A stretch of DNA of 64,000 nt from a virus, in the IMG/VR virus record IMGVR_UViG_3300050120_000210, positions 62,001 through 126,000 of that record; one strand, given 5' to 3'. Numbering within the stretch: the stretch's first letter is position 1; each line of letters opens with the position of its first letter. A program made the translations under genes and the position numbers. This document shows positions 1 to 58,213 of the stretch, in pieces. The notes below the pieces were generated by a model. The model was not told where the DNA came from, made no database searches, and saw nothing but the letters and a program-made list of their open reading frames with translations.

Positions 1-687
1 GAAGGCTACTGTGAACGCGCGCGATCCAGAGCGAGCTTCAAGAGCAGCGGCAAGTGCTTTCCGCGAGCGATCAGGTGTTGGTAGAGCTTCTGTGCCCGAC
101 CTTTCTTCAAAAAGTATCCTCCGTGGATCGGCCCCGTCTCTAGGACAGGCCACAAGGAAGACGCGCTCGCGTCGTTGCGGAACTCCTGAGTGTTTGGCGT
201 CAAGGAGCCGCCAAGCGATGTTTCGACGGGGTCCAGACACACAACCAGCGTGCGTCCATCCTTCCCCTGCTGGGACCAGCGGAGTGTCTTCTCCGGCCAA
301 CGCTGCAAGTAGGCATCCAAAGGCATTGTTTTTGTCACTCAAAATTCCCTTCACGTTCTCGAAGCAGACGAACGGAGGGTTGATGTCGTCAGCCAAATTA
401 CAGAAGCTCAGTGTCAGGGCGCCACGGGGATCGGCCGCGCCAGCGCGCCTACCGGCCAGAGAGAACGCCTGACAGGGAGTCGATCCCCACAGGATATCCA
501 CCTTGTCGGCCCATTCTTTCCCGTCGATCTTGGTCAAGTCCCCAAGGTCCGGCACATGCGGCCAACGATAGGCTAGAACAGCCTTGGGGAACGGTTCGAT
601 CTCGGAGAAAGCCACAGGCGTGAAGCCAAGCGGCTCCCACGCCAGAGAGACCGCATCAACGCCGCTGCATACGGTGAGGTAGCGCAT
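1..687 (-). CDS. DNA (cytosine-5) methyltransferase, 3' end cut by window edge
   Basis: The minus frame is open from ATG at 687 to base 1 (229 codons) with no stop, so the C-terminus lies outside the window. Motifs of C5 methyltransferases appear in order: SAM-binding VCSGVDAVSLAWEPLGF near residue 6, catalytic GSTPCQAFSLAGRR near 78, FENVKG near 115 and QRRERVFLVA near 165. By family knowledge it transfers methyl groups from SAM to cytosine C5. The target-recognition region is missing, so specificity is unknown. It starts one base after the stop of the GIY-YIG gene, so the two are co-transcribed. A phage would use it to shield its DNA from host restriction. Confidence 0.93.
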   Translation of the reverse strand, partial: MRYLTVCSGVDAVSLAWEPLGFTPVAFSEIEPFPKAVLAYRWPHVPDLGDLTKIDGKEWADKVDILWGSTPCQAFSLAGRRAGAADPRGALTLSFCNLADDINPPFVCFENVKGILSDKNNAFGCLLAALAGEDTPLVPAGEGWTHAGCVSGPRRNIAWRLLDAKHSGVPQRRERVFLVACPRDGADPRRILFEERSGTEALPTPDRSRKALAAALEARSGSRAFTVAF

Positions 688-688
688 C

Positions 689-1369
689 TTAGGACAGACT
701 TTTCCCTTGCTTATGTTTGCGCTCTTTTGGGAGTTGATCCAAAAGGTCGTTGACCAATGTCTGGCGATACCGAATAGCGTCGTTCATCGCTGCACTGGCG
801 TCCGTATCCAGATAGTATCTCGTGACGCGCAGGAGCATTTCTTGCTGATGCAAAAGATAGTTGTCCAATTTGCTTTGATCCGCGATATCATCATCGGGCA
901 GAAGTTGGATGACGTTGCACGTAGGAATTTCCACCACGCGCTTTGCAGGCTTAGGACGATAGGCGGCCATAATTGGATGTCCGTCATCCATATATTGTCG
1001 GGTAACTTGTTCTTCGATCCGACTGAGTTCGTCTTTGTTGCTGCCCGGCGATGGGTAAATCATCGCATATGCGATTTCGGCTGGGTCAATTTTCTGCTTC
1101 GCCATCGGGTCGGATCGTCCACAAGTGAGGTGACGTTGAATACGCCCACCCATTCCCTGCGTAGATTCGATACATTGGCCAACGTAGAAAACGCGCCGAG
1201 TTGCATCGGCGAGAGCATAAACCCCGGCCTTCTTAATATCGGGATGATGAAGGGCCGTGAGTTTGAAATTTTGCTTATTGGCGAAGTCCCGCTTCAAGTC
1301 ACCAACGGGCATCGGGGCTTCTAAAGAGACTTTATTTTCAGTCTCCGCCGAATCTGTAATCTTGACCAA
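689..1369 (-). CDS. GIY-YIG-like nuclease domain protein
   Basis: About 226 residues. Residues 50-85 contain GVYALADATRRVFYVGQ followed by an Arg and His-rich RIQRHL segment. This fits the GIY-YIG signature (GVY in place of GIY, YVG in place of YIG, then the conserved Arg). The C-terminal half is not recognised. The only far-upstream start is TTG at 1369 without a clear ribosome site; an internal ATG (MPVGDL, about residue 20) is possible. It sits directly upstream of the cytosine methyltransferase, so the pair could be a modification/nuclease unit or a homing-type nuclease beside it. Confidence 0.72.
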   Translation of the reverse strand: MVKITDSAETENKVSLEAPMPVGDLKRDFANKQNFKLTALHHPDIKKAGVYALADATRRVFYVGQCIESTQGMGGRIQRHLTCGRSDPMAKQKIDPAEIAYAMIYPSPGSNKDELSRIEEQVTRQYMDDGHPIMAAYRPKPAKRVVEIPTCNVIQLLPDDDIADQSKLDNYLLHQQEMLLRVTRYYLDTDASAAMNDAIRYRQTLVNDLLDQLPKERKHKQGKSLS

Positions 1370-1434
1370 TCTAATACGCTCATCGAAAGATAATGAGCCA
1401 TTAGTAACAGTTCATATTTTCGTTTACCATATTT

Positions 1435-1794
1435 TCAGGAGATGTGGTCTTCATCGTCCCAATCGCAGGCGCTCATCATCAGGATCGTCATGTCCCGCAT
1501 GAATTCCCGGTCGCCGGTGAGGGATGGGGTGAACATCTCGAACTGATTGGCGAAGGCCGTGAAGATGTTCTCTGGGTCGGACTCTTCGACCGGTTCACGT
1601 AGATTGAAACCCAACGTCCAGCCCTGCCCAACGAGCATATACCGCTCGAACCCGGCCCAATGGCTGTTGACATACAGATAGAGATGAACGCCGCCCAGCA
1701 CGAGCATTTCGCGGCTATGTGGCGATGTCCGCGAGAACAGCGTCTCGCAAACCTTGAGAACGAACTCGGGCGTGGTTTCGGCAAAGGCGATCAC
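1435..1794 (-). CDS. Small paralogue of the LLRMF family (member 1)
   Basis: 119 residues from GTG 1794. The C-terminus reads DREFMRDMTILMMSACDW, matching the R-x-M-x-[IL]-[LI]-x-[MR]-M-x-x-x-x-W ending shared by the tandem genes that follow in the operon. The middle has the common pattern of an alternating hydrophobic strand (LVLGGVHLYLYV) and W-x-L-x-F-x-L. No known domain was recognised. The function is unknown. A small alpha/beta domain duplicated many times is likely. Confidence 0.75.
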   Translation of the reverse strand: MIAFAETTPEFVLKVCETLFSRTSPHSREMLVLGGVHLYLYVNSHWAGFERYMLVGQGWTLGFNLREPVEESDPENIFTAFANQFEMFTPSLTGDREFMRDMTILMMSACDWDDEDHIS

Positions 1795-1856
1795 AGCGGC
1801 ATCCGCCGTTGTTTCGTCATTCTTGCGGCCCCGACTTCATTCGATGTTCGAACGCC

Positions 1857-1869
1857 TAGCACAGTGCTA
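1857..1869. promoter_or_regulatory. Perfect 13-bp palindrome, possible operator
   Basis: TAGCAC-A-GTGCTA is a perfect inverted repeat in the gap between the genes ending at 1911 and starting at 1794. It could be a repressor site or a short RNA hairpin. No T tract follows it on either strand. Confidence 0.3.
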
Positions 1870-1910
1870 CCACACAAAAACTGATCTATGTTAGTCATAT
1901 GCTTTGGGTG

Positions 1911-2294
1911 TTATCTGCCAGCAAAAATATGTTCGATTCCAAACATACGGAGAAGCGTCAGGTCTCTATCGATGGCTTCTCGATTTGCCACTTCAATTCC
2001 AACCAACGGCCGCGACACGCCTTCCCACCAAACATTCATGAGTGCAGGCGGAACGCGGCCCCCAGTCGGCATCACTTTCTGCCCTTTGTGCAAAGCAATG
2101 ACGACCTCCCAATCTCGCCCACTTACTTTGAACTTGTCCACATCGAAATTGCCAGTGAACCAAACTTTTTCGTAGGTAAGTTGAATCCCGGCCAGCGCAT
2201 ATTTTTTGCGCGCTTCTATGCTCTTCGTCGAATTGTCTTTTACGAACTCGACGAGATTGAGGAAAAGTTTGTGGTCCTTCTTCCGGTCGATCAT
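1911..2294 (-). CDS. Small paralogue of the LLRMF family (member 2)
   Basis: 127 residues. Start ATG 2294 overlaps the stop of the preceding gene as ATGA, so translation is coupled; a longer TTG start at 2336 is less likely. The C-terminus reads AIDRDLTLLRMFGIEH, the family signature. The middle contains GRDWEVVIALHKGQKV, resembling the W-x-[LV] strand of the neighbours. The function is unknown. Confidence 0.82.
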   Translation of the reverse strand: MIDRKKDHKLFLNLVEFVKDNSTKSIEARKKYALAGIQLTYEKVWFTGNFDVDKFKVSGRDWEVVIALHKGQKVMPTGGRVPPALMNVWWEGVSRPLVGIEVANREAIDRDLTLLRMFGIEHIFAGR

Positions 2295-2587
2295 TTTTCG
2301 ACCGCCATACGAACGTAGATCAGGTCTCGGTGGCAAGCATCTACGTCCCCGATGATCTCAAAGGAGGCGAGGCCAGACCTGTCACCGATGGTCTCGAACT
2401 CGACTGCCCAATTCGAATTGGGACACACGAGCATGAACAGGTCCGGCTTCTCCGTGGCGGCGATATCGAACCGCATTCCACAGAACTCGGCCGAGCGACG
2501 GCGGGATGGCTGCGTGGTTCCTGTTTCACGAACAAACCTCGTGATCTGTCTGGCCAGATCGGCAAACTCTTCTGACAATGCGGCCAT
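2291..2587 (-). CDS. Small paralogue of the LLRMF family (member 3)
   Basis: 98 residues. ATG 2587 is chosen because GGGAGG lies just upstream and TAATG overlaps the previous stop; the in-frame GTG at 2602 would sit inside that ribosome site. The C-terminus HRDLIYVRMAVEK is a weaker form of the family motif. The central strand NWAVEFETIGDRSG fits the same fold. The function is unknown. Confidence 0.82.
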   Translation of the reverse strand: MAALSEEFADLARQITRFVRETGTTQPSRRRSAEFCGMRFDIAATEKPDLFMLVCPNSNWAVEFETIGDRSGLASFEIIGDVDACHRDLIYVRMAVEK

Positions 2588-3075
2588 TATTGGACCTCCC
2601 ACAGCGGGATCATCAGACGCAAAATCGCCATTTCCCGACGATAGCTATCCTCGTAAGTCTCATAGCCACCACTACCGCGCACCTTGAATCCAAAGATAAA
2701 GCGAGATCGATTTCCGCCACAGAGATAGGCCCACTCCACCTCATCGAACGCTCGGTCATAATAGTGGCCCTGACCTCGCTGCGTGTTCCCCGGAGGAAAA
2801 TTGCTTCCGACGAATTGCAGATACCAACCATCGCCATGAAGTCGATAGCTGAGCGTGTAGCCGTTCTCCATGTAATCTCGTTTCACCTCGAAACGAAGTT
2901 TGATGCCCATGAGATTACTCTCGAAGGCACGCGAATAGCCGCCCATCGTATAGACGTAGGGTCCTTCAACTTCCTCACCGGAGAGACACACCGCATTGCA
3001 GATCATCGCGATCTGTTTGATGGAGGGTCCTTCGAGAACCGGATCGCCCGCGCCTTCGAGATGGGTTCTGCTCAT
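2587..3075 (-). CDS. Small paralogue of the LLRMF family (member 4)
   Basis: 162 residues starting MSRTHLEG at ATG 3075, coupled to the previous gene by ATGA. It is the longest tandem member. It has a Gly/Tyr-rich middle (GPYVYTMGGYSRAF), the strand GDGWYLQFVGSNF, and the ending YRREMAILRLMIPLW. The extra length is an insertion before the C-terminal signature. No known domain was recognised. Confidence 0.83.
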   Translation of the reverse strand: MSRTHLEGAGDPVLEGPSIKQIAMICNAVCLSGEEVEGPYVYTMGGYSRAFESNLMGIKLRFEVKRDYMENGYTLSYRLHGDGWYLQFVGSNFPPGNTQRGQGHYYDRAFDEVEWAYLCGGNRSRFIFGFKVRGSGGYETYEDSYRREMAILRLMIPLWEVQ

Positions 3076-3476
3076 CGCTGCCACTCCGATTCGAACATCC
3101 GAAGGAGTGACGAGTCGTGAACGTAGGCATCGTAATCGCCTTCGATTCGATCTATCTGCAAGCGCCCTTCGACGGGACTGGCAACGACTTTTCGGCCACC
3201 ACCAAAACCAAAATCGCGCGTCCCTCTGCACAGGATGCCAACCCGATCTAGGTCTTGATGGATGTCTACGAGATGGAAATTGATCGACCAGCGCAATGTG
3301 CAATCAGGTATGATGCCCTCACGCCGCCTGATCGCAAATCCTTTCCGCCCAGACGATCTCCAAGTTTCGTTGAAAAACTCCATGCCTCCGATCACCGCCA
3401 TAGGTATGTCGGTGTGCAGACCGTCTCCGGTCTTGAAAATGAAGTTGTAGAGGGAGGCGATTTCATGGGGTTCCAT
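3072..3476 (-). CDS. Small paralogue of the LLRMF family (member 5)
   Basis: 134 residues starting MEPHEIASLYNF. The ATG at 3476 lies 14 nt inside the end of the upstream gene. The C-terminus is YVHDSSLLRMFESEWQR, one of the clearest family endings. The core contains LRWSINFHLVDIHQD. The function is unknown. Confidence 0.83.
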   Translation of the reverse strand: MEPHEIASLYNFIFKTGDGLHTDIPMAVIGGMEFFNETWRSSGRKGFAIRRREGIIPDCTLRWSINFHLVDIHQDLDRVGILCRGTRDFGFGGGRKVVASPVEGRLQIDRIEGDYDAYVHDSSLLRMFESEWQR

Positions 3477-3912
3477 ATTCGGCCCATTCGCCAGAGAACA
3501 TACGGAGCAGCACCCAGTCGCGCTCGAAGCGTTGTTGGGTGGTATAGATTTCAAGAACCGGGTTCCACATCATCGCATCGTGGATCACCGTCGCGGGTGG
3601 CAATTTTTCACGAGTTCCTCGGCCGCTCGGTCCCACAACGTATTTCACCAGACCGTAATGAAGCGTGGGGACTTTCACCTTTACCCCACCGGAGCTTTGC
3701 CCACGGACATTCACCGTGGCTCCGATCCGCCAATTCGGGCACGAGAGCGCGATCTGCGTTCCCTTCTCGCGGAACACCAGATTGATCCCGAACATGTTGC
3801 GTGAGCAGATCATGAAGTTGCGCTTGCCGCGCCGCCACACGTTATCGACCGCCACTCCACACATGAGCGCGCCGATTTCTTTTTCATCCAAGAGGAACGG
3901 TAAATCAGCCAT
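3463..3912 (-). CDS. Small paralogue of the LLRMF family (member 6)
   Basis: 149 residues starting MADLPFLLDEKEIG at ATG 3912, inside the end of the preceding gene (overlap about 8 nt). It ends ERDWVLLRMFSGEWAEY. The core carries NMFGINLVFREKG and TQIALSCPNWRIG. The function is unknown. Confidence 0.82.
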   Translation of the reverse strand: MADLPFLLDEKEIGALMCGVAVDNVWRRGKRNFMICSRNMFGINLVFREKGTQIALSCPNWRIGATVNVRGQSSGGVKVKVPTLHYGLVKYVVGPSGRGTREKLPPATVIHDAMMWNPVLEIYTTQQRFERDWVLLRMFSGEWAEYGTP

Positions 3913-4222
3913 CGAAAAACATCTTGAATAGGACGGCATCTTCGCCCCGGTCGAATTCGAAAATGAACGGCACACCCGTCAGTCGAATCGCCTGCACGAG
4001 CGGGGTGTTCTTGAATTTTTCATGAGCCTCCATACCGGCCGCGATACCTTGCTCGGTCGCATCGCGCGCATACCACCGCCAACCGCGCGCGGCATTTTCG
4101 GCCAGCCACGCTTCGATGCGCTTGAACTCCGCGTCAATCTCGACCGGCGTACCATCTACCGCACAGATCGCGAGATATTGCAGATGTGCGCGGGGCTCGT
4201 GGATACCAAGAAAACGGATCAT
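3905..4222 (-). CDS. Small paralogue of the FK(M/L) family
   Basis: 105 residues starting MIRFLGIHEPRAH at ATG 4222 (ATGA coupling). The C-terminus FDRGEDAVLFKMFFDG is the canonical ending of a second paralogous family scattered over this window (pattern: acidic residue, D, A/L, x, x, F, K, M/L, aromatic). Residues 35-60 contain EAWLAENAARGWRWYARD, a helix typical of this family. It is embedded within the LLRMF operon, which suggests the two families are related. The function is unknown. Confidence 0.83.
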   Translation of the reverse strand: MIRFLGIHEPRAHLQYLAICAVDGTPVEIDAEFKRIEAWLAENAARGWRWYARDATEQGIAAGMEAHEKFKNTPLVQAIRLTGVPFIFEFDRGEDAVLFKMFFDG

Positions 4223-4623
4223 AGCCACTCCGAATCGAACATGCGGAGCAGGGTCATTTCCTTCTGGAACTTGTCCGGGCTGATGATGCACAGCGTGTGC
4301 ACGCACAGGCGCTTGTTGAACTCGGCCGGATCGATGAACCGGTTCCACGGCGCCAGAAACAACCAGACCATTTCCGAAGCCACGTCGTCGGCCATGTTGC
4401 GCGGACGCTGTCGGGTCACTTGGAACGACAGCATCCAGCCGTTGCCGGTAAGCGAGAGAATGGAGAGACCCTTCTCGTGGAACGTTTGCCGCACGCGCAA
4501 CGTCACGCCTGCGATATTGCCCTCGGTGATGAAAAGAAGCCCATGCTTCGTCCACTGGGCATCACGGGTCACAGCGTTGATGACGCCGATAACTTCCGAC
4601 AGTTTTGCACCATGCAGGTTCAT
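4219..4623 (-). CDS. Small paralogue of the LLRMF family (member 7)
   Basis: 134 residues, ATG 4623 coupled by TGATG. It ends FQKEMTLLRMFDSEWL. The core SILSLTGNGWMLSFQV shows the shared strand pattern with the W-x-L-x-F element. The function is unknown. Confidence 0.83.
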   Translation of the reverse strand: MNLHGAKLSEVIGVINAVTRDAQWTKHGLLFITEGNIAGVTLRVRQTFHEKGLSILSLTGNGWMLSFQVTRQRPRNMADDVASEMVWLFLAPWNRFIDPAEFNKRLCVHTLCIISPDKFQKEMTLLRMFDSEWL

Positions 4624-5126
4624 CAGGCTTCTCCCTGCACACGCATTTCAAGTTCGATGCCAGTTATGCCTTCGGCGACCAGCTTTTCGCGCAAGGCGAT
4701 CTGGCGTTGAAATTTCTCATAGCCGAAGCGGCGCGGGGTGACCGGAAGCTCGTTTCCGTAGATCGAAAACGGTTCGTTGTCACCGACGATGATCGTCTTT
4801 TTGGTCTCCAACAATGCGTGGAAACCTTCGCCCAAATGCTTATCGATCTCGGTCGCAAAATCTTTGAAGATCGATTGCTTGAAGCGAACTCCCGAACAGA
4901 TCAGACCGGAAATCAATTCCCGCTGCCCGTGTTCCCGCCGCATGACGACTCGCATTTCGGCCCCGTGATACTGGGTGCCATACATGCCCGACCAGACGGA
5001 CGAACCCGGCACCCAGAGCAGCAGCAAATCTTGAGTCCTCGCGAGTACACGGACGCGCGGGGCGTAGTTGCAGCCGTTCACGGCGCCCTTGATGATCTCT
5101 TGATCGACTGTGCGAAAATTGCTCAT
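4623..5126 (-). CDS. Hypothetical protein
   Basis: 167 residues starting MSNFRTVDQEIIKG, coupled at both ends by TGATG overlaps. It contains GVRFKQSIFKDFATEIDKHL and a C-terminal helix rich in Arg/Lys/Glu (EKFQRQIALREKLVAEG). It lacks the LLRMF ending although it lies in the same operon. No domain was recognised. Confidence 0.8.
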   Translation of the reverse strand: MSNFRTVDQEIIKGAVNGCNYAPRVRVLARTQDLLLLWVPGSSVWSGMYGTQYHGAEMRVVMRREHGQRELISGLICSGVRFKQSIFKDFATEIDKHLGEGFHALLETKKTIIVGDNEPFSIYGNELPVTPRRFGYEKFQRQIALREKLVAEGITGIELEMRVQGEA

Positions 5127-5500
5127 CAGAACTTCATGTCTCTGAGACGGTGAACCTCGACCTTGCCCGGCGTGAGAACGTAGAAGCCAAACTCATCGAG
5201 AGAGAACACCAGCTTTCCAGCGGTCATCGCATCGGCGATGATCTTCGCACTTTCGCTGCACCATGAGCCGTAAATGGGGGCCATGGTGCTGTAGATGCCC
5301 TCGCGATATTGCGAGTTGAAGACCTTCACGTTGCCGAGCTTCGAGCACTTCAGGAAGCCCCTGAAGGTCGGGTTGGATACGGCGTTCTGAACATAGCCCT
5401 CGGCCAGTTCACAACCGCTCTTGAGAAGTGTGGCGTTCAGGGCATCAATGTCCCCGAACACCACGCCTTCGCTTTGCTTGACCGATAGAAAGTCCCGCAT
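5126..5500 (-). CDS. Hypothetical protein
   Basis: 124 residues starting MRDFLSVKQSEGV; ATG 5500 lies one base after the stop of the zinc protein upstream. It contains a Cys-bearing middle (FLKCSKLGNVKVF, YGSWCSESAK) and ends KVEVHRLRDMKF. No known domain was recognised. Confidence 0.8.
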   Translation of the reverse strand: MRDFLSVKQSEGVVFGDIDALNATLLKSGCELAEGYVQNAVSNPTFRGFLKCSKLGNVKVFNSQYREGIYSTMAPIYGSWCSESAKIIADAMTAGKLVFSLDEFGFYVLTPGKVEVHRLRDMKF

Positions 5501-5501
5501 A

Positions 5502-6848
5502 TCAGGCCGCCATCGCCTTAGCGCCCCACGGCAGGCCGTAGTTGCCCGCACAGGTCTTACCGTAGCCCACCGCCGTCGAACGGGCGTCGTCGAGGCCACG
5601 GTTGCAGAAGCAGCATTGGCCGGTCAGCTTGCCGTAGGCAGCCGCCGTGCCAGCCGGGTCCTTGGACAGATTGGAGAGCAGGGCGACCAGCGAAGTCATC
5701 GTGCCGCCTTGCACGGCGTTGGACTTCGTCCACTCGCCCTGCGGGGTCACCCGGCCGAACCAGATGTTGTTGTCGAAGGAACCACCATCGGTGATGTTGA
5801 CCGCGCCCTTGTGGGCCGAGCGGTCACCGGCGACCGACAGGACGATGGGTTGGCCGTCCGGCAGGGCCAGACGAATCTTCGGCCACTTCAGGTTCTTGGC
5901 GCCCAGCGTCATCAGTTCGATGACACCCTTGAAGTCGCCCACGTCCAAGGTCTTCGGACCTTGGTTGGCGCGGGCCTTGTTGTTGAAGTAGACGCCGACG
6001 ATGGACGCGCACAGTCCGGCCGAGCGGGGCTCCATCATGGTCGCATCGGCGATCACCGTGATGTTGTGCTCGTAGTCGGACAGTTCGGTCTTCTCGCGCA
6101 GGCTCGACGCCCAGTTCAGGGCTTCGGCGGCGAGTTGACGTTCGGCATCGCCGAACGGATGGGCGACCGGGTCCATGGTGAAGTAGGACCACGCATGTTC
6201 ACGAGACGCCGTCAGGTTGGGGTTCTCGTAGGCGGCCTTGCCCGACACCCAGCCATGACGAAGAACGGCGCGGGCGGCACACACCGCGAACTCTTCAACG
6301 GCGATCCAGCGCATGTCCTGCGGAGTGATCGAGCCCAGTTGGTAAGCGCCACGACCGCACTCATAGGCATAGCCCAGCAGTTCGGCGAGTTTGGCGATCT
6401 TCATGGGATCGTGGCCGAAGAAATCCTTCAGACAGGTCGAACCGACTTGCTTGAACTCTCCGGTCTCGTCATTCCGCACCACGAAGGTGTCGCGACGAAA
6501 GCGGTTCACGTTGCAGTGGTCACAGCGGGTGTTGACGGCGGTGCGGTAGGCGTCCGGCAGGGAGCCCGCGTTCGGGACCATACGGATGATTGTGCCGGTG
6601 TCGTTCGAGTGGTCGAGGCGGGCGACGAAGGTCCAGCCGTTGAGCTTCGGCACTTCGGCGGTCAGCATCACCGAGTAGACGCGATGCGTCTTGCCATCGG
6701 CGAGTTCTTTTTCTTCGTGGCTGAACGTGAAGGGACGGATTTCCGAGCCGATCAGCTTGACCGACTTCTTGGAGAGCTTGGCGATCTGCGCTTCGAACTT
6801 GGCCATGTTCTCGGCCGGGATTTCGAAGAGGGTGCGAAGGTCTTCCAT
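5502..6848 (-). CDS. Large zinc-ribbon protein with DUF6011-like C-terminus
   Basis: 448 residues; SD GGAG lies 8 nt before ATG 6848. Residues 105-150 hold CDHCNVNRFRRDTFVV and KQVGSTCLKDFFG, a four-Cys zinc-ribbon pattern. The last 45 residues carry CCFCNRGLDDARSTAVGYG-x-x-C and end YGLPWG, which matches the DUF6011-type ending (C-x-x-C, then D-x-RS, then VGYG-x-x-C). Proteins of this plan occur in many phages and their role is not known. It heads the operon and is preceded by an early-type promoter at 6885-6912. Nucleic-acid binding is a guess from the zinc motifs. Confidence 0.85.
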   Translation of the reverse strand: MEDLRTLFEIPAENMAKFEAQIAKLSKKSVKLIGSEIRPFTFSHEEKELADGKTHRVYSVMLTAEVPKLNGWTFVARLDHSNDTGTIIRMVPNAGSLPDAYRTAVNTRCDHCNVNRFRRDTFVVRNDETGEFKQVGSTCLKDFFGHDPMKIAKLAELLGYAYECGRGAYQLGSITPQDMRWIAVEEFAVCAARAVLRHGWVSGKAAYENPNLTASREHAWSYFTMDPVAHPFGDAERQLAAEALNWASSLREKTELSDYEHNITVIADATMMEPRSAGLCASIVGVYFNNKARANQGPKTLDVGDFKGVIELMTLGAKNLKWPKIRLALPDGQPIVLSVAGDRSAHKGAVNITDGGSFDNNIWFGRVTPQGEWTKSNAVQGGTMTSLVALLSNLSKDPAGTAAAYGKLTGQCCFCNRGLDDARSTAVGYGKTCAGNYGLPWGAKAMAA

Positions 6849-6884
6849 GTGATGAATCTCCGTGCCGTTTTTGCTTATGACACG

Positions 6885-6912
6885 AATCTACCACCGAACC
6901 GAAGTCCGTCAA
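6885..6912 (-). promoter_or_regulatory. Early-type promoter for the zinc-ribbon gene
   Basis: Minus-strand TTGACG (6912-6907), 16-nt spacer, TAGATT (6890-6885). It matches the recurrent intergenic element TTGAC[CG]-N16/17-TAnnnT of this phage. An ordinary leader with GGAG follows. Confidence 0.65.
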
Positions 6913-6925
6913 CAATATTGCGACC

Positions 6926-7243
6926 CTAACCCTCGAAGTGGAGTTTGAACAAAAGTAGGTCCGAAAATGAAGCGAACTCCATAGTGGTTATGTAGTGACC
7001 CAGTATCATTTCACCCTTGGGTTCTATCTTGATGTAGTGTTCTTTACACCATGCCACGATCTCGGGGCTGAACGTATGCGTAGTGAACACGCTGGGACCA
7101 ATTTGTTGACGATTCGTCGTCATCCAACCTTCTTTTGGAAAAATAGCATTTTTTTCTAGCAACACGGGGGCAAGATCAGCCATGGCCTTGTCCCAATCTC
7201 TTCTCCACTTCTTGGATGCCGTGGGAATATCGTCGTCCATCAT
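6926..7243 (-). CDS. Small paralogue of the FK(M/L) family
   Basis: 105 residues, MMDDDIPTASKKWRR, coupled by ATGA at 7243. It ends ASFSDLLLFKLHFEG. It contains PEIVAWCKEHYIKIEP, the pre-motif helix seen in relatives. The function is unknown. Confidence 0.82.
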   Translation of the reverse strand: MMDDDIPTASKKWRRDWDKAMADLAPVLLEKNAIFPKEGWMTTNRQQIGPSVFTTHTFSPEIVAWCKEHYIKIEPKGEMILGHYITTMEFASFSDLLLFKLHFEG

Positions 7244-7479
7244 CCGAACCGCAACTTGAAATGGATGGCGTCTCGCTCATCGGCGAAGCAGAACTCCATG
7301 CGTCTCTGGACGCTGTCCATAGCCCAATCGCCCAACGAACATTCTTTCTCGATGAACTCGACCATGCCCCGATCTTCGCCCATGGCGATGTGAACTGCCT
7401 CGATATCCGTGCGAATGACAAACGGAAGCGGCGGCCTTCGCCACCGTTGTTGAGCAGAGACTTGTTTACCCGGCCTCAT
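7240..7479 (-). CDS. Small paralogue of the FK(M/L) family
   Basis: 79 residues, MRPGKQVSAQQRWRR, starting 14 nt before the end of the preceding gene. It ends ADERDAIHFKLRFG. It is a tandem neighbour of two other members. The function is unknown. Confidence 0.8.
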   Translation of the reverse strand: MRPGKQVSAQQRWRRPPLPFVIRTDIEAVHIAMGEDRGMVEFIEKECSLGDWAMDSVQRRMEFCFADERDAIHFKLRFG

Positions 7480-7666
7480 AGATCAACTCATCGAAGAAGA
7501 TTTTGAAGGTGGCAGCCCGTGACTTCGTCGGGATGTGAAAAATCACGCCCCCGGCGACTTCATGATCGAAGGTGGATTTGGCGCCGCACACGTCATAAAC
7601 TCCGGCCATCTGTCGCATTTGCTCTATCTGAGCATCATCGACCGGTTTGGCCTTGAAGACATACAC
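7466..7666 (-). CDS. Small paralogue of the FK(M/L) family
   Basis: 66 residues, MYVFKAKPVDDAQIEQM. The ending GVIFHIPTKSRAATFKIFFDELI is the family motif with a short extension. It is the shortest member. It overlaps the next gene by 14 nt and starts just after the preceding stop. Confidence 0.78.
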   Translation of the reverse strand: MYVFKAKPVDDAQIEQMRQMAGVYDVCGAKSTFDHEVAGGVIFHIPTKSRAATFKIFFDELIYEAG

Positions 7667-7668
7667 GA

Positions 7669-7845
7669 CTATGTGGCGAGTTCTTCAGCGAGCACTTCCG
7701 CTGCCACGGTCTTCACGTAGTTCGACCAACGCACGCGGTCGTCCCACGGCGCCGCCGCGAACGGCGGATAGCGTTCGCTGTCGCGATGATAGCCGTCGTT
7801 GGCTCGTTGAATGATGGCTTCGGCAATCTCTTCGGGAGTTTTCAT
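7669..7845 (-). CDS. Small hypothetical protein
   Basis: 58 residues, MKTPEEIAEAIIQRAND, coupled by ATGA at 7845. It is acidic and helical, with WDDRVRWSNYVKTVAAEVL near the C-terminus. No known domain. Confidence 0.78.
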   Translation of the reverse strand: MKTPEEIAEAIIQRANDGYHRDSERYPPFAAAPWDDRVRWSNYVKTVAAEVLAEELAT

Positions 7846-8090
7846 ATCGGCTCCGGTGGGCGCTGGTTGTTGTCGAACATGTCTTGGATTTCGCGCGAAC
7901 GCTGCTGTGCTAGATCGTGTGGTGGTTGACCGAAGCCACAGGCTGTATTCGACAACCTCACCCACTTCTGTTTCCAGACGTTCCATTCCCACATGTCATA
8001 GGACTTGCTGCCGTCTTCAAGGACGCGTTCTTTGATCGCCGTCCAGCGGAACTGCGCGACAACTGTCGATTTTGCCTTGGCCTTGGTCAT
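7842..8090 (-). CDS. Small hypothetical protein
   Basis: 82 residues, MTKAKAKSTVVAQFRW, with a Trp-rich core (YDMWEWNVWKQKWVRLSN). An early-type promoter ends only 7 nt before ATG 8090, so the transcript should be leaderless or nearly so. It heads an operon of small genes. Confidence 0.8.
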   Translation of the reverse strand: MTKAKAKSTVVAQFRWTAIKERVLEDGSKSYDMWEWNVWKQKWVRLSNTACGFGQPPHDLAQQRSREIQDMFDNNQRPPEPI

Positions 8091-8097
8091 GGCGGGC

Positions 8098-8125
8098 AGT
8101 TTACGCGAATTTAGGAAATGGTCAA
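8098..8125 (-). promoter_or_regulatory. Early-type promoter giving a leaderless start
   Basis: Minus-strand TTGACC (8125-8120), 16-nt spacer, TAAACT (8103-8098), then 7 nt to ATG 8090. It overlaps the 3' end of the ParB-like gene. Confidence 0.65.
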
Positions 8126-8535
8126 CGAACTACAGTTTGTCGGAGACTGGTGCCGAACTGCTCGACAAACTCTTTGGCACGAGACGTTTCGGTCACAACA
8201 GGGATTGCCTCGGCGCCGTGGTCGCGCATCCATGCGTAGCGATGGCGGCCGTTGGTGAAAGTGACATTGCCTCGCGCACCAAACCCGACCTCAGACATCT
8301 CTACGGGCTCTCCACCCTTCACCCATGTATCGAAGCGGCCAGCGATACCGTTCTCTGAGCCCTGTGGGCCAACGTAGAAACCACGATCAAATTTGAATGA
8401 CGCGTCCAGCTTGGCGACATCCACCCACACAATAGTTTCTGTGCCTTCTTCCAATGCGGCACGGCACGCCTTCGGCGGTTTCCATTGGATCAGAAGTCCG
8501 GCGGCCTGATCTTCAAAGAGTTCGAAGACTCTCAT
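8122..8535 (-). CDS. ParB-like domain protein with head-targeting-type leader
   Basis: 137 residues, MRVFELFEDQAAG, ATGA-coupled to the GNAT gene. Residues 85-125 include VTFTNGRHRYAWMRDHGAEAIPVV, a ParB/sulfiredoxin-like GRHR motif with the following pV strand. The N-terminus MRVFELFE carries [IL]-x-E and resembles the leader shared by nine other proteins here. The fused GNAT-ParB-like protein at 21257-22387 shows that this gene and its partner belong together. The biochemical role is unknown; ParB folds can bind DNA or NTP. Confidence 0.72.
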   Translation of the reverse strand: MRVFELFEDQAAGLLIQWKPPKACRAALEEGTETIVWVDVAKLDASFKFDRGFYVGPQGSENGIAGRFDTWVKGGEPVEMSEVGFGARGNVTFTNGRHRYAWMRDHGAEAIPVVTETSRAKEFVEQFGTSLRQTVVR

Positions 8536-9245
8536 CGACGAGCCGGGCGGGCCAGAAGTCGGCCGCCATCATAGTCGTATGCCACGGCTAATTCTTCAAC
8601 AGTGTTCACAAGTTGCACGTTGTCTTCGTCGTGTGGGACCGGAGACACGTAAACAACCTCGAACTGCGGCGACAGGACCATTCGTTTCCAGAGAGAAGCG
8701 CCTTCATCTGTTTGCATTTCATCAGCTTCAAGCCAATCACAGACGTTGTTCATCAACCAAGCATACAGCACGAGCGCAATACCTTTCCCGGCATATGCGC
8801 GGTCAATGCGGACACTCGACACTTGCAAGCTTATACCACCATTGCCGTCGATGTCGGCCGATACCGAGCCAAAGGTGCCCGTTAGGTAGCCCACGGGTGT
8901 GATGTCGTCGAACACCACGTAGAATGCGGTGACGGCATCTTCGATAACGGGCACTTGCTCATCGCTCTCATCGTCGTTGCGATCTCGCGGGCGGGCGACG
9001 GAGAACCCAAGGCCCGGAAGCTCTCCCACGCGAACCATGGGCGTCTTGTCGCCAAATGGCGTGGCGCCCGGCTTCACACGGCGAGGAAGATCGGGGAACA
9101 ACAATGGCTGGCGAGGGTCTTCTTTGCCCGGCACGCCCATTTTTTCTGGCGAGAAATCACCAACTTGATCGTCCCACTCGTCGCTGAGATCAGAAACAAG
9201 CTGAATCTCACTGAGTGGTTGTTGGAAGAGTTCGAGCAAACGCAT
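8532..9245 (-). CDS. GNAT-like acetyltransferase with head-targeting-type leader
   Basis: 237 residues, MRLLELFQQPLSE. The leader contains LSE. The GNAT core is suggested by VSSVRIDRAYAGKGIALVLYAWLMNN (residues about 142-167), where R-x-x-x-G-x-G/A is the acetyl-CoA loop, and by the following DEGASLWKRM helix. The late box TAAATA ends 4 nt before the ATG, so the mRNA should be leaderless. It is coupled to the ParB-like gene by ATGA. The substrate is unknown. Confidence 0.72.
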   Translation of the reverse strand: MRLLELFQQPLSEIQLVSDLSDEWDDQVGDFSPEKMGVPGKEDPRQPLLFPDLPRRVKPGATPFGDKTPMVRVGELPGLGFSVARPRDRNDDESDEQVPVIEDAVTAFYVVFDDITPVGYLTGTFGSVSADIDGNGGISLQVSSVRIDRAYAGKGIALVLYAWLMNNVCDWLEADEMQTDEGASLWKRMVLSPQFEVVYVSPVPHDEDNVQLVNTVEELAVAYDYDGGRLLARPARR

Positions 9246-9249
9246 CCGA

Positions 9250-9255
9250 TATTTA
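9250..9255 (-). promoter_or_regulatory. T4-type late promoter box (CTAAATA)
   Basis: CTAAATATCGG precedes ATG 9245 by 4 nt. The same CTAAATATCGG-ATGCG string occurs at 25816-25831. Confidence 0.7.
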
Positions 9256-9258
9256 GCG

Positions 9259-9288
9259 AAAAAGCCCCGGAGATCACTCCCCGAGGCT
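9259..9288 (-). terminator. Rho-independent terminator just upstream of the GNAT gene
   Basis: On the minus strand AGCCTCGGGGAG, a 4-nt loop, CTCCGGGGCT and five T. It closes whatever is transcribed from about 9400 and insulates the late promoter at 9250. Confidence 0.65.
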
Positions 9289-9390
9289 CTTGCGATTTAC
9301 AGGACTTCGCCCTTACCACAGATGTGCAGACGATGGCCGAAGGGAGTCCCGTCTTGACTTTCGTCGCCCGTGTCACAAGTCCGGCTGCGT
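9289..9390 (-). other. Short gap with possible frameshifted mini-gene
   Basis: Between two minus-strand terminators, ATG GCA GTT CTG ACG CAG CCG GAC TTG ends at TGA. A +1 shift at TTG-TGA-C would extend the 9-residue peptide by about 25 residues ending HICGKGEVL. The site resembles the stop-dependent +1 site of bacterial prfB, but no internal Shine-Dalgarno is evident. It may equally be a small RNA. Confidence 0.2.
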
Positions 9391-9451
9391 CAGAACTGCC
9401 ATCGTCTGTTTTCCACGACCAACGCTATAAAATCTGGTTAACGAAGGCAAG

Positions 9452-9477
9452 AAAAAAGGGCGGCCCGAAGACCGCCC
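9452..9477 (-). terminator. Terminator of the RcnB-like gene
   Basis: The minus strand reads GGGCGG, 8-nt loop, CCGCCC, then six T. It lies about 28 nt after the stop at 9506. Confidence 0.9.
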
Positions 9478-9505
9478 TCTCAACCTTGTGATCCGGGCAA
9501 TCCCT

Positions 9506-9925
9506 TTAGTAGGGACGGCCGTATTGATCGTAGCGATAGCCGGGCGGTGCGTAGGCCGGATTGTAGTTCGGGGCGGCGTAGACCGGGCCGTTGTCGAAGA
9601 TGTTCTCGATGATCCCGGTGGCGATGGCCGCGAGCACGATGTCACCGGCGTCGGTGCGGTAGTAGGCGTAGCCGCGCGGCGGAACGCGATAGCCGTAACG
9701 GTAGTAGTCGTTCACGATGTAGCGACGATCACGGAACTGGAAGGGGAGCGATTCGCCCCGCGCCCAGCGATGCTGTTCGTAGCGTTGGCCGTCACGGCGG
9801 TCGGCGTCGTGGCGCTCGCCATCACGACGGTTGTATTCGGTGTGGCCATACGGTTGAGCCGTGGCTACGGTCGCGCCCAGCGTCAGGGCGCTGGCAGCGA
9901 CGATGAGGAGAGTCTTGTTGAACAT
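9506..9925 (-). CDS. Secreted RcnB-like protein
   Basis: 139 residues. A Sec signal peptide is clear: MFNKTLLIVAASALTLG with AxA cleavage near residue 23. The mature part is Arg/Asp/Tyr-rich, then RWARGESLPFQFRDRRYIV, PPRGYAYYR and DIVLAAIATGIIENI. This order matches the RcnB family (nickel/cobalt efflux regulator, periplasmic). It is a single-gene unit with its own terminator. It is a bacterial-type envelope gene carried by a phage, probably of host origin. A role in metal handling or envelope alteration is inferred only from the family. Confidence 0.8.
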   Translation of the reverse strand: MFNKTLLIVAASALTLGATVATAQPYGHTEYNRRDGERHDADRRDGQRYEQHRWARGESLPFQFRDRRYIVNDYYRYGYRVPPRGYAYYRTDAGDIVLAAIATGIIENIFDNGPVYAAPNYNPAYAPPGYRYDQYGRPY

Positions 9926-10004
9926 TTCGGTCCCTTTGAAAGTTAGAGCTTCACCTTAGCACGGTTCGGCTGAACCTGCACAGTATGTCTCGTTAATCTG
10001 TCGT

Positions 10005-10322
10005 TCACAGATGCTTGGAGCCGAGATGTTGATACAGGTTGAAGAGCGCCGAGTGTGCGGCGTGAGCCAACCCGAAGGCTTCTTTGTCCAGCAAGATGGC
10101 CGGATGTTCAACAAGATGACGATCCACGGAGTCCATGAGGACAGACGCCGTATGAAGCGCCTCATGGTAGCTGAAGGTTCCGGGGATATTATCCTCGGGG
10201 ACGATGCCCGGATCGTATTTGCCCTGTTCGTCTTCGCTGCCCAGATTGTCGATGGCTTCGCGCCTCGATGCTTCGATCTCGGCCGGAGTGAACTTAATTC
10301 GACGGGTCCTTGAGCGTTTCAC
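10005..10322 (-). CDS. Hypothetical protein
   Basis: 105 residues from GTG 10322, overlapping the upstream gene by 29 nt. Basic N-terminus (MKRSRTRRIKFTPAEIEASRREA), helical C-terminal half with HEALHTASVLMDSVDRHL. The start is uncertain because of the overlap. No known domain. Confidence 0.7.
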   Translation of the reverse strand: MKRSRTRRIKFTPAEIEASRREAIDNLGSEDEQGKYDPGIVPEDNIPGTFSYHEALHTASVLMDSVDRHLVEHPAILLDKEAFGLAHAAHSALFNLYQHLGSKHL

Positions 10323-10596
10323 TTTGATCCTTGATGGCTTGTGCGATGGCGGCGAGCGCCGCTTGCGGGCTCTTGAATTGCCCGCTCAGTCGCGGGGTCA
10401 TCAGAGCAATGTGGATGAGGTTTGGACCGAACATGCGGACCAGTCCATTGGGCGGGAAACGCCCATTACCGGCGCCCTCAAAACGGTTCGTTCGTCTACG
10501 AGCGGCGGGGCGCTCTCGATAGGTATGCTCAGCGCAAAGCAGCATCGCAACCTGTTGGTAGAAGCGTTCTTCTACCCCAAAATCTTTTTCATTCAT
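10294..10596 (-). CDS. Hypothetical late protein
   Basis: 100 residues, MNEKDFGVEERFYQQ. A CTAAATA late box ends 9 nt before ATG 10596. Middle NGRFPPNGLVRMFGPN, C-terminal helix QAALAAIAQAIKDQ. The function is unknown. Confidence 0.75.
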   Translation of the reverse strand: MNEKDFGVEERFYQQVAMLLCAEHTYRERPAARRRTNRFEGAGNGRFPPNGLVRMFGPNLIHIALMTPRLSGQFKSPQAALAAIAQAIKDQSETLKDPSN

Positions 10597-10605
10597 TCTG
10601 CGTCC

Positions 10606-10611
10606 TATTTA
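10606..10611 (-). promoter_or_regulatory. T4-type late promoter box (CTAAATA)
   Basis: GTCTAAATAGGACGC within an imperfect palindrome, 9 nt before ATG 10596. Confidence 0.6.
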
Positions 10612-10631
10612 GACGCAGGAAGAGACAATAG

Positions 10632-12016: not shown

Positions 12017-12285
12017 CACGCAAACTGCGATAATCGGCGGGCCGTCATCTTCAGACGTTTGCCTTCGATCTCGGCGTGCGGCGCCAGATAGACGAGGGTC
12101 ATCACCCGCTGAGATAGACTGTAGATGAGCACGGCGTCATCTCGTAGATGACAATGCCAGAAACCGGTGAGATCGCCGATCATCCGGCGGTCATGTTTGC
12201 CGTACCGAGCGGTCAAAGGATCGCGAATTTTGGTCTCGACGAACTTGTTGAGCTTGGTTCGTATGTCGGGGAACGTGGTCGCCAT
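12016..12285 (-). CDS. RelE/YafQ-like mRNA interferase toxin
   Basis: 89 residues from MATTFPDIRTKLN (ATG 12285; the frame is open further upstream to 12486, but the domain starts here). The motifs KFVETKIRDPLTARYGKHD, IGDLTGFWHCHLRDDAVLIYSL and LVYLAPHAEI follow the YafQ plan (DH...L.G, cHi..D.lLIY). By family it would be a ribosome-dependent mRNA endonuclease. No antitoxin gene is evident next to it. It may be a phage effector or serve host shut-off. The start is uncertain. Confidence 0.68.
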   Translation of the reverse strand: MATTFPDIRTKLNKFVETKIRDPLTARYGKHDRRMIGDLTGFWHCHLRDDAVLIYSLSQRVMTLVYLAPHAEIEGKRLKMTARRLSQFA

Positions 12286-12462: not shown

Positions 12463-12468
12463 TAAATA
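12463..12468 (+). promoter_or_regulatory. T4-type late promoter box (CTAAATA)
   Basis: GCTAAATAGTCG ends 4 nt before the GTG start at 12473 (leaderless geometry). Confidence 0.65.
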
Positions 12469-12472
12469 GTCG

Positions 12473-43124: not shown

Positions 43125-43451
43125 ATGGTCATGCGTCACAAACCGCTCCCGCCTCTTCCGCGCAATCCGTTCTGGCCGTTGAGCCCGATCAAATCGACAC
43201 CGATGACGATTCACATCCCGGTCGATTGTCTCCACAGCGTCAACCAACACGGCGCCGCCCTTAAGACAGAGGTGCGGCAATGGCTCGTCGAGAACACCAC
43301 CTCTTATGCCTGTCGTGTGATCGAGAACATCTGGGTCACCCCGGCCGAAAATGCCGCGTGGCGAAACCACCCACTCAATCGCCAGAACATGGCCTTCATC
43401 ACTTTCGAAAACGAAAATGATCTCCTGCATTTCAAAATGCGCTGGTCATAA
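43125..43451 (+). CDS. Small paralogue of the FK(M/L) family
   Basis: 108 residues, MVMRHKPLPPLPRNPF; a start at the second Met is equally possible. It ends MAFITFENENDLLHFKMRWS, the clearest FK(M/L) ending, with the pre-motif helix KTEVRQWLVENTT. It is one of only two FK-family members on the plus strand (the other is at 56904-57641) and sits directly after tRNA-Val. Confidence 0.82.
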   Translation: MVMRHKPLPPLPRNPFWPLSPIKSTPMTIHIPVDCLHSVNQHGAALKTEVRQWLVENTTSYACRVIENIWVTPAENAAWRNHPLNRQNMAFITFENENDLLHFKMRWS

Positions 43452-44016: not shown

Positions 44017-44295
44017 TCATTCGCCTCTCCAAAACAGTTCGAACATCAGAGCATCGCGTTCCTCGTAGAAAAGGATCGTCTCGCGTGTTTTCTCCTGCCA
44101 TTGATTTTCTTGGCTGGGGGCCTCGATACGCTGGGAATAAAGTCCCCAGCCGCCCCTCGTATTCATATGCAGCCAATCCTTGATGTGCTGACGGACGCGC
44201 GACGAGCGCCAACTCGGCTCGCGGCGATTCACACCCGATTCGGGAATGTCGGCCTTGATGACGTGGGTTGAGCCGAAGGTAAAAGGTTCAAGCAT
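44017..44295 (-). CDS. Small paralogue of the FK(M/L) family
   Basis: 92 residues, MLEPFTFGSTHVIKAD, ATG inside the end of the upstream gene. It ends ILFYEERDALMFELFWRGE. The helix VRQHIKDWLHMNTRGGWG precedes the strand. It is the last gene of a five-member tandem operon. Confidence 0.82.
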   Translation of the reverse strand: MLEPFTFGSTHVIKADIPESGVNRREPSWRSSRVRQHIKDWLHMNTRGGWGLYSQRIEAPSQENQWQEKTRETILFYEERDALMFELFWRGE

Positions 44296-44542
44296 CGGTG
44301 GACCCCCAGAACATGAAAAACAGCACAGCGTCCCGTTCAAGCTCGAACAGCGCCACCGGCGAGGTTACCGATGGATGATAGAACAATGTGACGGTATACA
44401 ACGCCTGCATATTTGCTTTGAGCCAGTCCGCGACTGTCGGCGTGAATTTAAGGCCGCGTGTGCCTTCGTAGTAGGCCCCGCCGCCGACGACTAGGTCTAC
44501 CCGAAAACGATACGAGATACCATTGATGGGCTGCACGCTCAC
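44288..44542 (-). CDS. Small paralogue of the FK(M/L) family
   Basis: 84 residues from GTG 44542 (GTGA coupling), MSVQPINGISYRFRVD. It ends ALFELERDAVLFFMFWGS. Helix TPTVADWLKANMQ. Confidence 0.8.
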   Translation of the reverse strand: MSVQPINGISYRFRVDLVVGGGAYYEGTRGLKFTPTVADWLKANMQALYTVTLFYHPSVTSPVALFELERDAVLFFMFWGSTDA

Positions 44543-44853
44543 TCGAAACCCCAGAACATTTTGAAGAGGGCGGCATCAGATCGGGTGCGAAACAACACTC
44601 GGCAGAAATTAACGGTGAACGAACTCTGGCCGCTGGCGTCTCGGCGCCAGCCATTCCCGAATTGCACCAGCCACCCCAATTTCGAGCTTCCGAGCAACCA
44701 TGCGACCACTTCCGACTTGAGGGCCTTGTCGGCGAAATATGCCGGAGGCACATCGACGATGAACCAGTTCTTCAACAGAGGATCGGCCGGGAAGTGCACC
44801 GTTTCGCCGTCGTATCCGACCACGTCTTTCAGGATGTCTTCCGGCTCCCTCAT
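44539..44853 (-). CDS. Small paralogue of the FK(M/L) family
   Basis: 104 residues, MREPEDILKDVVGYDG, ATGA coupling. It ends VLFRTRSDAALFKMFWGFE. Helix ALKSEVVAWLLGSSKLGW. Confidence 0.82.
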   Translation of the reverse strand: MREPEDILKDVVGYDGETVHFPADPLLKNWFIVDVPPAYFADKALKSEVVAWLLGSSKLGWLVQFGNGWRRDASGQSSFTVNFCRVLFRTRSDAALFKMFWGFE

Positions 44854-45107
44854 GACCGGTCCAACGCCCAGACCAAGTTCCAGCGAATGCAGAACACCAG
44901 TCGGTCGGCCTCTGTGGCGAATTGAAGCTCACACGAATCGTCGGGCCAGTGCACGACAACTATGACGATGCTCGTTTCCGCGCACCATCGTGCAGCCTCG
45001 TCAGCCAATCGATATTCGCCGCATTCGGCGTACACGCTCGGATCGTAGATGCACGCTTTCGCCGACGTGAAGACTTGGCCATCGGTCAGATGGAGGGAAA
45101 TTGTCAT
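44850..45107 (-). CDS. Small paralogue of the FK(M/L) family
   Basis: 85 residues, MTISLHLTDGQVFTSA, ATGA coupling at 45107. It ends LQFATEADRLVFCIRWNLVW, where F-C-I replaces F-K-M. Helix RLADEAARWCAETS. Confidence 0.78.
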   Translation of the reverse strand: MTISLHLTDGQVFTSAKACIYDPSVYAECGEYRLADEAARWCAETSIVIVVVHWPDDSCELQFATEADRLVFCIRWNLVWALDRS

Positions 45108-45421
45108 GTCAGGTAGAACATCTTGAAGAGCACGGCGTCTTCCTTGGACCATATCGTGATCCACGTCAGGCCATAGCCCGCAAGAATGGAGATGTCATCG
45201 CGCTGGATGGACCGCAGCCATCCTCGCACATCTGCATTCAAGGTCGTGCGGCGCTGACCTTGGGGCGCGATATATTCCTCCATGATCTCGCCTTCACCGA
45301 CTTTCGTTTCGTTGAACGTCTTGAGGAAGACATAGCGCCGCGATCTGTCGATGCGGTCGCGACCGGGCATCAACAGGTTAATGCGATAGAGCGGGTGCTT
45401 CATATCGTCGGCGATGGACAT
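45104..45421 (-). CDS. Small paralogue of the FK(M/L) family (operon head)
   Basis: 105 residues, MSIADDMKHPLYRIN, AGGA before ATG 45421. It ends ITIWSKEDAVLFKMFYLT. Helix TLNADVRGWLRSIQRDD. A TTGACG element (45469-45464) lies upstream, with a poor -10. Confidence 0.8.
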   Translation of the reverse strand: MSIADDMKHPLYRINLLMPGRDRIDRSRRYVFLKTFNETKVGEGEIMEEYIAPQGQRRTTLNADVRGWLRSIQRDDISILAGYGLTWITIWSKEDAVLFKMFYLT

Positions 45422-57641: not shown

Positions 57642-57932
57642 CACTTTCAGAGTCATGTGCTCGCCGTAGTGCAGCTTGAAATAGACGGCCTCTGCCTCAG
57701 ACTCGAACTCCATCGTCAGAATGACCGTGTGCTGAAGACCATCCGGGCGTTCGTGCGTGAGCACTTGGGCGCGGACGTGGGTGATGAACAGATTCCAATC
57801 CACGATGTCGGCCGCCGGGTCCACCTCCCGTTTCAGCGCATCGCGCATCAGATTGACGACGGCCATGTGGATCGCGTCTTGGCGATTGTAGGCGGGGCCA
57901 CAGCCCATCCGCATGACTTCGTATTCGAGCAT
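57558..57932 (-). CDS. Small paralogue of the FK(M/L) family with C-terminal extension
   Basis: 124 residues, MLEYEVMRMGCGPAYN, TGATG at 57932. The motif ILTMEFESEAEAVYFKLHYGEH lies internally, followed by a 33-residue basic tail encoded in the region antisense to the convergent gene. The tail may be a recent read-through extension. Confidence 0.75.
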   Translation of the reverse strand: MLEYEVMRMGCGPAYNRQDAIHMAVVNLMRDALKREVDPAADIVDWNLFITHVRAQVLTHERPDGLQHTVILTMEFESEAEAVYFKLHYGEHMTLKVLPDKHLNKNGVVARRHRKRNTVAALDD

Positions 57933-58213
57933 CAGAACCACCGAAGCTTGAACAGTGTCGCGTCTTCAACGAACTCGAACCAGACCAGATAGGCGAACGA
58001 ACCATCCACGATGTCCATGCCGGATGCGTAAATCTTCGGAGAGACTTCGACTGCGTCGTAGTGTCCGCGCATGTTCTTCTTGCACCATGTTTCGCAGGCA
58101 GGCTGGAACACCGGCTTGGTCGTCACGGGCATATCGCCACGCAAAATTTGCTCGAAGGCGATGTCGAGTGGCAGATGGACCCGCGTGGCCTGACGGGCGA
58201 AGTCCATGCTCAT
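57932..58213 (-). CDS. Small paralogue of the FK(M/L) family
   Basis: 93 residues, MSMDFARQATRVHLPL, ATGA at 58213. It ends VWFEFVEDATLFKLRWF. Helix QPACETWCKKNMRGHYD. Confidence 0.82.
   Translation of the reverse strand: MSMDFARQATRVHLPLDIAFEQILRGDMPVTTKPVFQPACETWCKKNMRGHYDAVEVSPKIYASGMDIVDGSFAYLVWFEFVEDATLFKLRWF

Follow-up and report, generated by a model that had tools for sequence, protein, structure and literature searches.

The window analyzed here, 64,000 nucleotides (nt) of viral DNA (bases 62001-126000 of the 149,124-base IMG/VR record IMGVR_UViG_3300050120_000210), carries a tandem array of seven small genes, at record 63-67 kb, whose proteins end in variants of the motif LLRMF. 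This LLRMF array is real, new and orphan, with an architecture of a known kind. Judged from sequence profiles, the family comprises eight supported members, the eighth lying outside the window at record 142212-142514 and the array gene 2291 being the least certain (array genes are named by their lower window coordinate). Our tentatively favored reading is that the array represents a lineage-specific orphan family of small, fast-diverging, non-virion proteins that may be kept for host takeover or counter-defense. One gene of a second set, the FK(M/L) family, is embedded in the array; this is a family apart from LLRMF, much larger and without a family name. We conclude that LLRMF and FK are two families with a similar ending, which might still share an origin.

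Phage context and array architecture

By sequence, the record belongs to a jumbo phage of the T4 superfamily with Sinorhizobium phage Phosso as a close relative. Among its products are a portal, a major head protein of T4 type and an SbcC-like protein; the major capsid protein shares 81.2% identity with its counterpart in Phosso (469 kb) and 66.5% with that in Agrobacterium phage Atu_ph07 (490 kb). Because viral contigs of 290-543 kb have capsid genes 76-83% identical to those of the record, the record probably represents part of a jumbo phage genome.

Seven open reading frames lie within 1435-4623, all on the minus strand, exactly where the first-pass annotation had put them, together with the one FK-type gene that it had described as embedded among them, at 3905-4222 (Table 1). 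In the direction of transcription, which runs toward lower coordinates, the genes are 4219, FK gene 3905, 3463, 3072, 2587, 2291, 1911 and 1435. Successive genes overlap by 4 nt (4219/3905), 8 nt (3905/3463), 14 nt (3463/3072), 4 nt (3072/2587), 1 nt (2587/2291) and 4 nt (2291/1911). The proposed linkage by small overlaps thus holds for six of the seven LLRMF genes plus FK gene 3905 (1-14 nt) and fails for 1435-1794, which is 116 nt away from 1911 and not coupled. Codon scores back coding for most array genes and are weak for 3072 (1.4) and 2291 (3.6).

The LLRMF genes form one family

Array members are 15-29% identical to the first member, and alignment A1 reveals an invariant G39 and W63 (4219 numbering) in addition to the conserved C-terminus. 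Leave-one-out hidden Markov models (HMMs) built from the seven array genes only recovered 4219 at E 7e-10, 3463 at 0.001, and 3072, 1911, 2587 and 1435 at 0.04-0.22, and missed 2291. In six of the seven rounds the best other match was L020:16312-16614, the eighth member at record 142212-142514. With eight members, seven of the eight ranked first among 999 proteins when left out, and 2291 ranked 31; with the C-terminus removed, four of the eight ranked first, two second, and two (3072 and 3463) were lost. Random sets used as a control gave 0/48 first ranks. The claim of a paralogous tandem array is upheld, and most members appear to be related beyond their ending; it falls short at 2291, missed in the eight-member test.

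Two further candidates were rejected. The protein at window 15401-15922 has an ending (FENDMTMIRVEL plus a tail) that resembles LLRMF, but it is not counted as a member because it ranks 17/998 when left out. Its addition to give a nine-member version placed 8/9 first, including 2291, and 6/9 first with the C-terminus removed. A candidate at 4314-4763 in sequence L010, ending EMTLMRLIL, has no profile support.

The family appears confined to this record. Both the A1 profile, run against 13 jumbo or related records, and the nine-member profile, run against 11, matched only the own record, which served as the positive control. Single-protein searches of viral contigs with two members found no relatives, nor did searches of phages with two members and the eighth gene, whose phage matches (cyanophage tail-tube or hypothetical proteins, E 2-9 among the matches listed) were treated as chance. 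A single-protein search of genome contigs with one member returned 29 pattern matches, none confirmed, and the exact pattern LLRMFxxEW occurs in five stretches of viral contigs, none of them a relative. Very distant relatives could have been missed by these searches. Searches of the published literature found no account of either the LLRMF or the FK family among the papers listed.

The common C-terminal ending

The first-pass annotation had described the ending as D-x-[TSA]-[LI]-[LI]-[RM]-[ML] in all seven genes. Sought in the last 26 residues of each protein, this literal motif is present in only three (1435, 1911 and 3072); a widened form is present in 7/7. The widened motif occurs in 8/199 called proteins of the record, a set that does not contain gene 3072, and in 0/201, 2/199, 0/153, 2/97 and 0/156 called proteins of five relatives. 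Shuffled tails gave zero matches in 1944 of 2000 rounds and one match in 56. The codons of the LLRMF core differ at synonymous sites, and selection therefore acts on the protein. A likely GGAG-type ribosome-binding site for the next gene lies in the SEW codons after the core in 4219 and 3072 and in the end codons of 2587; this site may account for part of the EW tail but no more.

The FK(M/L) family

At E<=10, the first FK profile hit 11/13 records, Phosso alone at 40 places. Iterated on called genes, in which the relatives' stretches had been picked for FK matches, the profile collected 188 proteins at E<=0.01, with the domain ending <=12 residues from the C-terminus in 176. FK genes account for 56/651 called genes in Phosso (~9%, whole genome), 39/592 in relative G008 (454 of 519 kb) and 17/193 in the own record. 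They cluster: adjacent FK pairs number 20 in Phosso, 19 in G008 and 6 in the own record versus 4.7, 2.5 and 1.2 in shuffles, and the longest run, in G008, spans 11 genes. The consensus ending is F-x-x-x-x-D-A-x-L-F-K-L-x-W-x-stop, for which 138/176 could be anchored.

When 58 FK members were scanned, any given Pfam or PHROG family matched at most one of them, and tblastn against phages returned nothing useful for three FK queries, two of them proteins and the third a short peptide. FK genes are labelled hypothetical in the Phosso annotation, positions 1-20000. Two ideas about FK genes were rejected. The end residues are not fixed by ATGA overlaps, as a 4-nt overlap occurs in 12/79 FK versus 100/870 other genes. 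FK genes do not favor tRNA genes as neighbors, with 6/56 versus 47/595 in Phosso (p=0.44), 1/17 versus 3/182 in the own record and 0/39 versus 32/553 in G008.

Some FK proteins carry stretches that resemble head proteins. The protein of G008 FK gene L154:10553-10933 begins with 38 capsid-like residues ahead of its FK domain, 63% identical to residues 64-101 of its own major capsid protein and 66% identical to residues 68-105 of that of the window phage. An own-record FK protein (12398-12724 in L016) contains 18 residues, 17 of them identical, of residues 125-142 of its own head maturation protease, the part bearing the GVSSRG motif. In Phosso, FK protein L143:3924-4304 has a stretch 33-50% similar to major capsid residues ~333-367, which failed a stricter filter. 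Captured pieces of large proteins are not enriched in FK proteins (2/197 versus 7/982, p=0.65); the two cases are odd nonetheless.

Relationship between LLRMF and FK proteins

The first-pass annotation had suggested that LLRMF and FK form a single superfamily, to be given up if their profiles showed no similarity and their predicted folds differed. Sequence comparison lends this no support, and by that yardstick the proposal is refuted for now. HMM-HMM comparison of LLRMF with FK alignments by hhalign (12, 58 and 48 sequences) gave 0.06-0.14% probability, which is noise; random FK and random unrelated sets gave 0.03-0.30%. Of 10 proteins that belong to LLRMF or resemble it, the iterated FK profile recovered none at E<=50; it ranked the eight LLRMF members no differently from background (Mann-Whitney p=0.49).

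AlphaFold2 models of the two proteins differ in the order of their elements. LLRMF 4219 (predicted local distance difference test score, pLDDT, 73.8; predicted template modelling score, pTM, 0.71) is modelled as helix 8-19, four strands (30-37, 40-50, 53-59 and 64-71), a variable part with two weakly predicted helices, strand 106-114 and helix 116-128. FK 44017 (pLDDT 76.1, pTM 0.60) is modelled as strand 10-16, helix 32-45, two further strands (50-60 and 66-76) and helix 79-90, an order that looks like a ferredoxin-type alpha+beta plait without its last strand. Both models close with a strand followed by a helix, with the motif within the helix. Against solved structures, nothing significant was found for LLRMF (Foldseek best E 0.34; VIA best Z 4.6, root-mean-square deviation (rmsd) 3.2 Å over 91 residues) or FK (best E 0.13; VIA Z 5.4, rmsd 2.8 Å over 77 residues), and the best match of the LLRMF model in a viral structure library had E 0.066. 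Low-scoring rows include START/PR-10-like and p32-like structures for LLRMF and ferredoxin-like ones for FK; none stands out.

The pattern common to both families is real but short. Within the last 20 residues, [DE]-x-x-h-h-[KR]-h occurs in 7/8 LLRMF proteins, 64/188 FK-profile matches and 12/808 others (1.5%), three of the 12, all from the own record, looking FK-like. An ancient superfamily in which the strand-helix ending is ancestral, and LLRMF gained strands between its first helix and last strand, would account for this rare pattern and for the similar ends of the two models. FK proteins are also mildly enriched among the best background matches of the LLRMF profile, with four of the top 5 (p=0.02) and six of the top 10 (p=0.03); further down, they make up 8 of the top 20 (p=0.13) and 15 of the top 40 (p=0.08). 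A G-x-G-W strand in some relatives' FK proteins, as in LLRMF 1435, 2587 and 4219, would offer a further bridge, but it is circular and not counted because the FK subset was picked by an LLRMF-derived pattern. Set against the noise-level hhalign result, the background ranking by the FK profile and the different element order, a common ancestor of this kind is unlikely.

Function and alternative explanations

Small, fast-diverging, tandem and non-conserved genes of large phages are commonly host-takeover or anti-defense genes, and LLRMF and FK proteins probably both help the phage inside its host. The array would have arisen by tandem duplication, repeated within a single jumbo phage, with rapid divergence afterwards, and its genes may be co-translated from one message. 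The LLRMF protein is predicted to adopt a small alpha+beta fold with a final strand and an amphipathic helix bearing the motif; each paralogue would present its own variable loops on this common scaffold, with the C-terminal helix serving the fold or the docking of a partner. The proteins would act in the infected cell rather than in the virion, and an arms race with the host could maintain the diversity of paralogues. FK would have expanded separately, and to a far greater extent, in this phage group; a similar reason probably maintains it.

Several observations weigh against a host-directed orphan family. Gene 2291 was not recovered in the eight-member test, and 3072 and 3463 depend on their C-terminus. 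Promoter-like sites are at chance level (2 found versus 3.4 expected), and the LLRMF proteins have no convincing match in PHROGs or Pfam and none in NCBIfam, PADLOC or PDB sequences. The missing PADLOC match is not evidence against counter-defense, because PADLOC models describe defense proteins.

That LLRMF and FK proteins are instead virion or assembly components is quite improbable. The captured head-protein pieces in two FK proteins of the phage group point that way, but such a piece is found in 0/7 LLRMF proteins, no PHROG structural family was matched, and the array lies >30 kb from the genes for portal and capsid (L017, record 22-29 kb).

It is very unlikely that two folds separately gained the C-terminal helix as a short motif for docking many small phage proteins to one partner, such as the phage sliding clamp. 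In both families the motif does sit at the C-terminus or close to it, and the relatives' DNA polymerases terminate in short peptides with hydrophobic and acidic residues (DLFTF, DLFSF, DLFSW and DLFTW in L162, L164, L167 and L168) that are probably clamp-binding. Two T4 reports describe interchangeable clamp-binding C-terminal peptides (PMC2988020, PMC7892883). The T4 peptides, however, are acidic and on a flexible linker, whereas the motif of LLRMF and FK contains a basic residue and its helix is modelled with fair confidence beside a strand; a gp33-family match in Phosso is marginal (E 0.03), and 7/14 control genomes match too. A broader version, in which two unrelated small-protein folds of Phosso-like jumbo phages have in common a C-terminal helix module for docking to a single partner, of phage or host, and the arrays act as a cassette system, is highly improbable. 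If true, the docking helix would be kept while the N-terminal part is varied or swapped, rarely using the phage's own head-protein pieces, and each genome would hold tens of different effectors, all addressed to one hub.

The idea that the ending recurs as a side effect of translational coupling, with gene-end DNA holding the next ribosome-binding site and start, is hardly credible and already largely refuted: the GGAG-type sites within codons of 4219, 3072 and 2587 fit it, but the core lies upstream of them with varying synonymous positions and is kept in gene 1435, which is coupled to nothing, and 4-nt overlaps are no commoner at FK genes.

Other features of the window and record

Table 1. 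LLRMF and FK genes and upstream neighbors of the array (window coordinates).
Feature	Coordinates	Strand	Evidence
LLRMF paralogue 1, most typical member, 134 aa	4219..4623	-	leave-one-out HMM rank 1/999, E 7e-9; AlphaFold2 pLDDT 73.8
Embedded FK-family gene, 105 aa, ending DAVLFKMFFDG	3905..4222	-	iterated FK profile E 5e-8
LLRMF paralogue 2, 149 aa, ending LLRMFSGEW + tail	3463..3912	-	leave-one-out rank 1, E 8e-4; C-terminus removed: rank 19
LLRMF paralogue 3, 134 aa	3072..3476	-	leave-one-out rank 1, E 0.002; C-terminus removed: rank 151; codon score 1.4
LLRMF paralogue 4, 162 aa, variant ending ILRLM	2587..3075	-	leave-one-out rank 1, E 7e-4; C-terminus removed: rank 2
LLRMF paralogue 5, 98 aa, most divergent, ending YVRM	2291..2587	-	rank 1 (9-member), rank 31 (8-member); codon score 3.6
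LLRMF paralogue 6, 127 aa	1911..2294	-	leave-one-out rank 1, E 0.0014
LLRMF paralogue 7, 119 aa, GTG start, ending TILMM, uncoupled	1435..1794	-	leave-one-out rank 1, E 7e-6
Non-member directly upstream of array, 167 aa, 1-nt overlap	4623..5126	-	matches no family
Upstream non-member, 124 aa, 1-nt overlap	5126..5500	-	same strand
Conserved upstream gene, 448 aa	5502..6848	-	phrog_2319 / DUF6011
FK-family gene, ending LLFKLHFEG	6926..7243	-	FK profile E 3e-10 (on shorter called form)
FK-family gene, ending DAIHFKLRFG	7240..7479	-	FK profile E 3e-10 (on shorter called form)
FK-family gene downstream of tRNA-Val	43203..43451	+	FK profile E 6e-12
FK-family gene, AlphaFold2 model beta-alpha-beta-beta-alpha	44017..44295	-	pLDDT 76.1; FK profile E 6e-12
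FK-family gene	44288..44542	-	FK profile E 2e-9
FK-family gene	44539..44853	-	FK profile E 1e-8
FK-family gene	45104..45421	-	FK profile E 7e-7
FK-family gene	57932..58213	-	FK profile E 1e-12

The record also encodes an NAD synthetase (L018:14647-16008; phrog_36784, E 2e-182) and, within ~5 kb of it, a nicotinamide phosphoribosyl transferase-like protein (L018:17936-19705; phrog_448, E 2e-7); by eye, proteins of sequence L010 resemble NAD-salvage enzymes. The protein at window 8122-8535 has a Pfam match to the plasmid fertility inhibition factor (PFIN, E 1e-6). A start motif, M-[RK]-x-x-[ED]-h-x-E, opens the proteins at window 8122, 25827, 27821, 28918, 46615 and 55472 and, by eye, those at 8532 and 56005. 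By pattern, it occurs at 7/199 called gene starts (one, 7669, doubtful), with 16 matches at 4161 internal Met; the motif resembles T4 capsid-targeting sequences.

Comparison with known systems

Much of a jumbo phage genome consists of unnamed small genes, and two such sets here prove to be families: an 8-member orphan set in one phage and the FK set, ~9% of called genes in the cultured phage Phosso. FK is the larger story; once its profile has a name, a large number of hypothetical genes could be annotated in one go. Phosso grows in culture on its Sinorhizobium host, a system in which array deletions are feasible to study. The two families are alike in their small proteins, their tandem arrays with short overlaps, and a C-terminal strand and helix bearing acidic-x-x-hydrophobic-F/L-K/R-L/M. 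They differ in that FK lacks profile similarity to LLRMF, has another predicted order of elements, and is shorter and far more widespread.

A hydrophobic C-terminal segment in different proteins is also known from T4 gp43, gp55 and gp33 (PMC2988020, PMC7892883). Those clamp-binding C-termini are acidic and on a disordered linker, whereas the LLRMF and FK segments are basic and in a predicted ordered helix; the LLRMF core further departs from the T4 clamp motif by its basic residue, a tail of 2-12 residues after the core and the ordered helix of the models. In Bacillus phage G, a zinc ribbon (ZnR) expansion of about 35 copies is present (PMC7824862). As in the LLRMF array, a single small protein has multiplied in one giant-phage lineage; the phage G protein, however, is a zinc ribbon for which DNA binding has been suggested, whereas LLRMF has no domain match.

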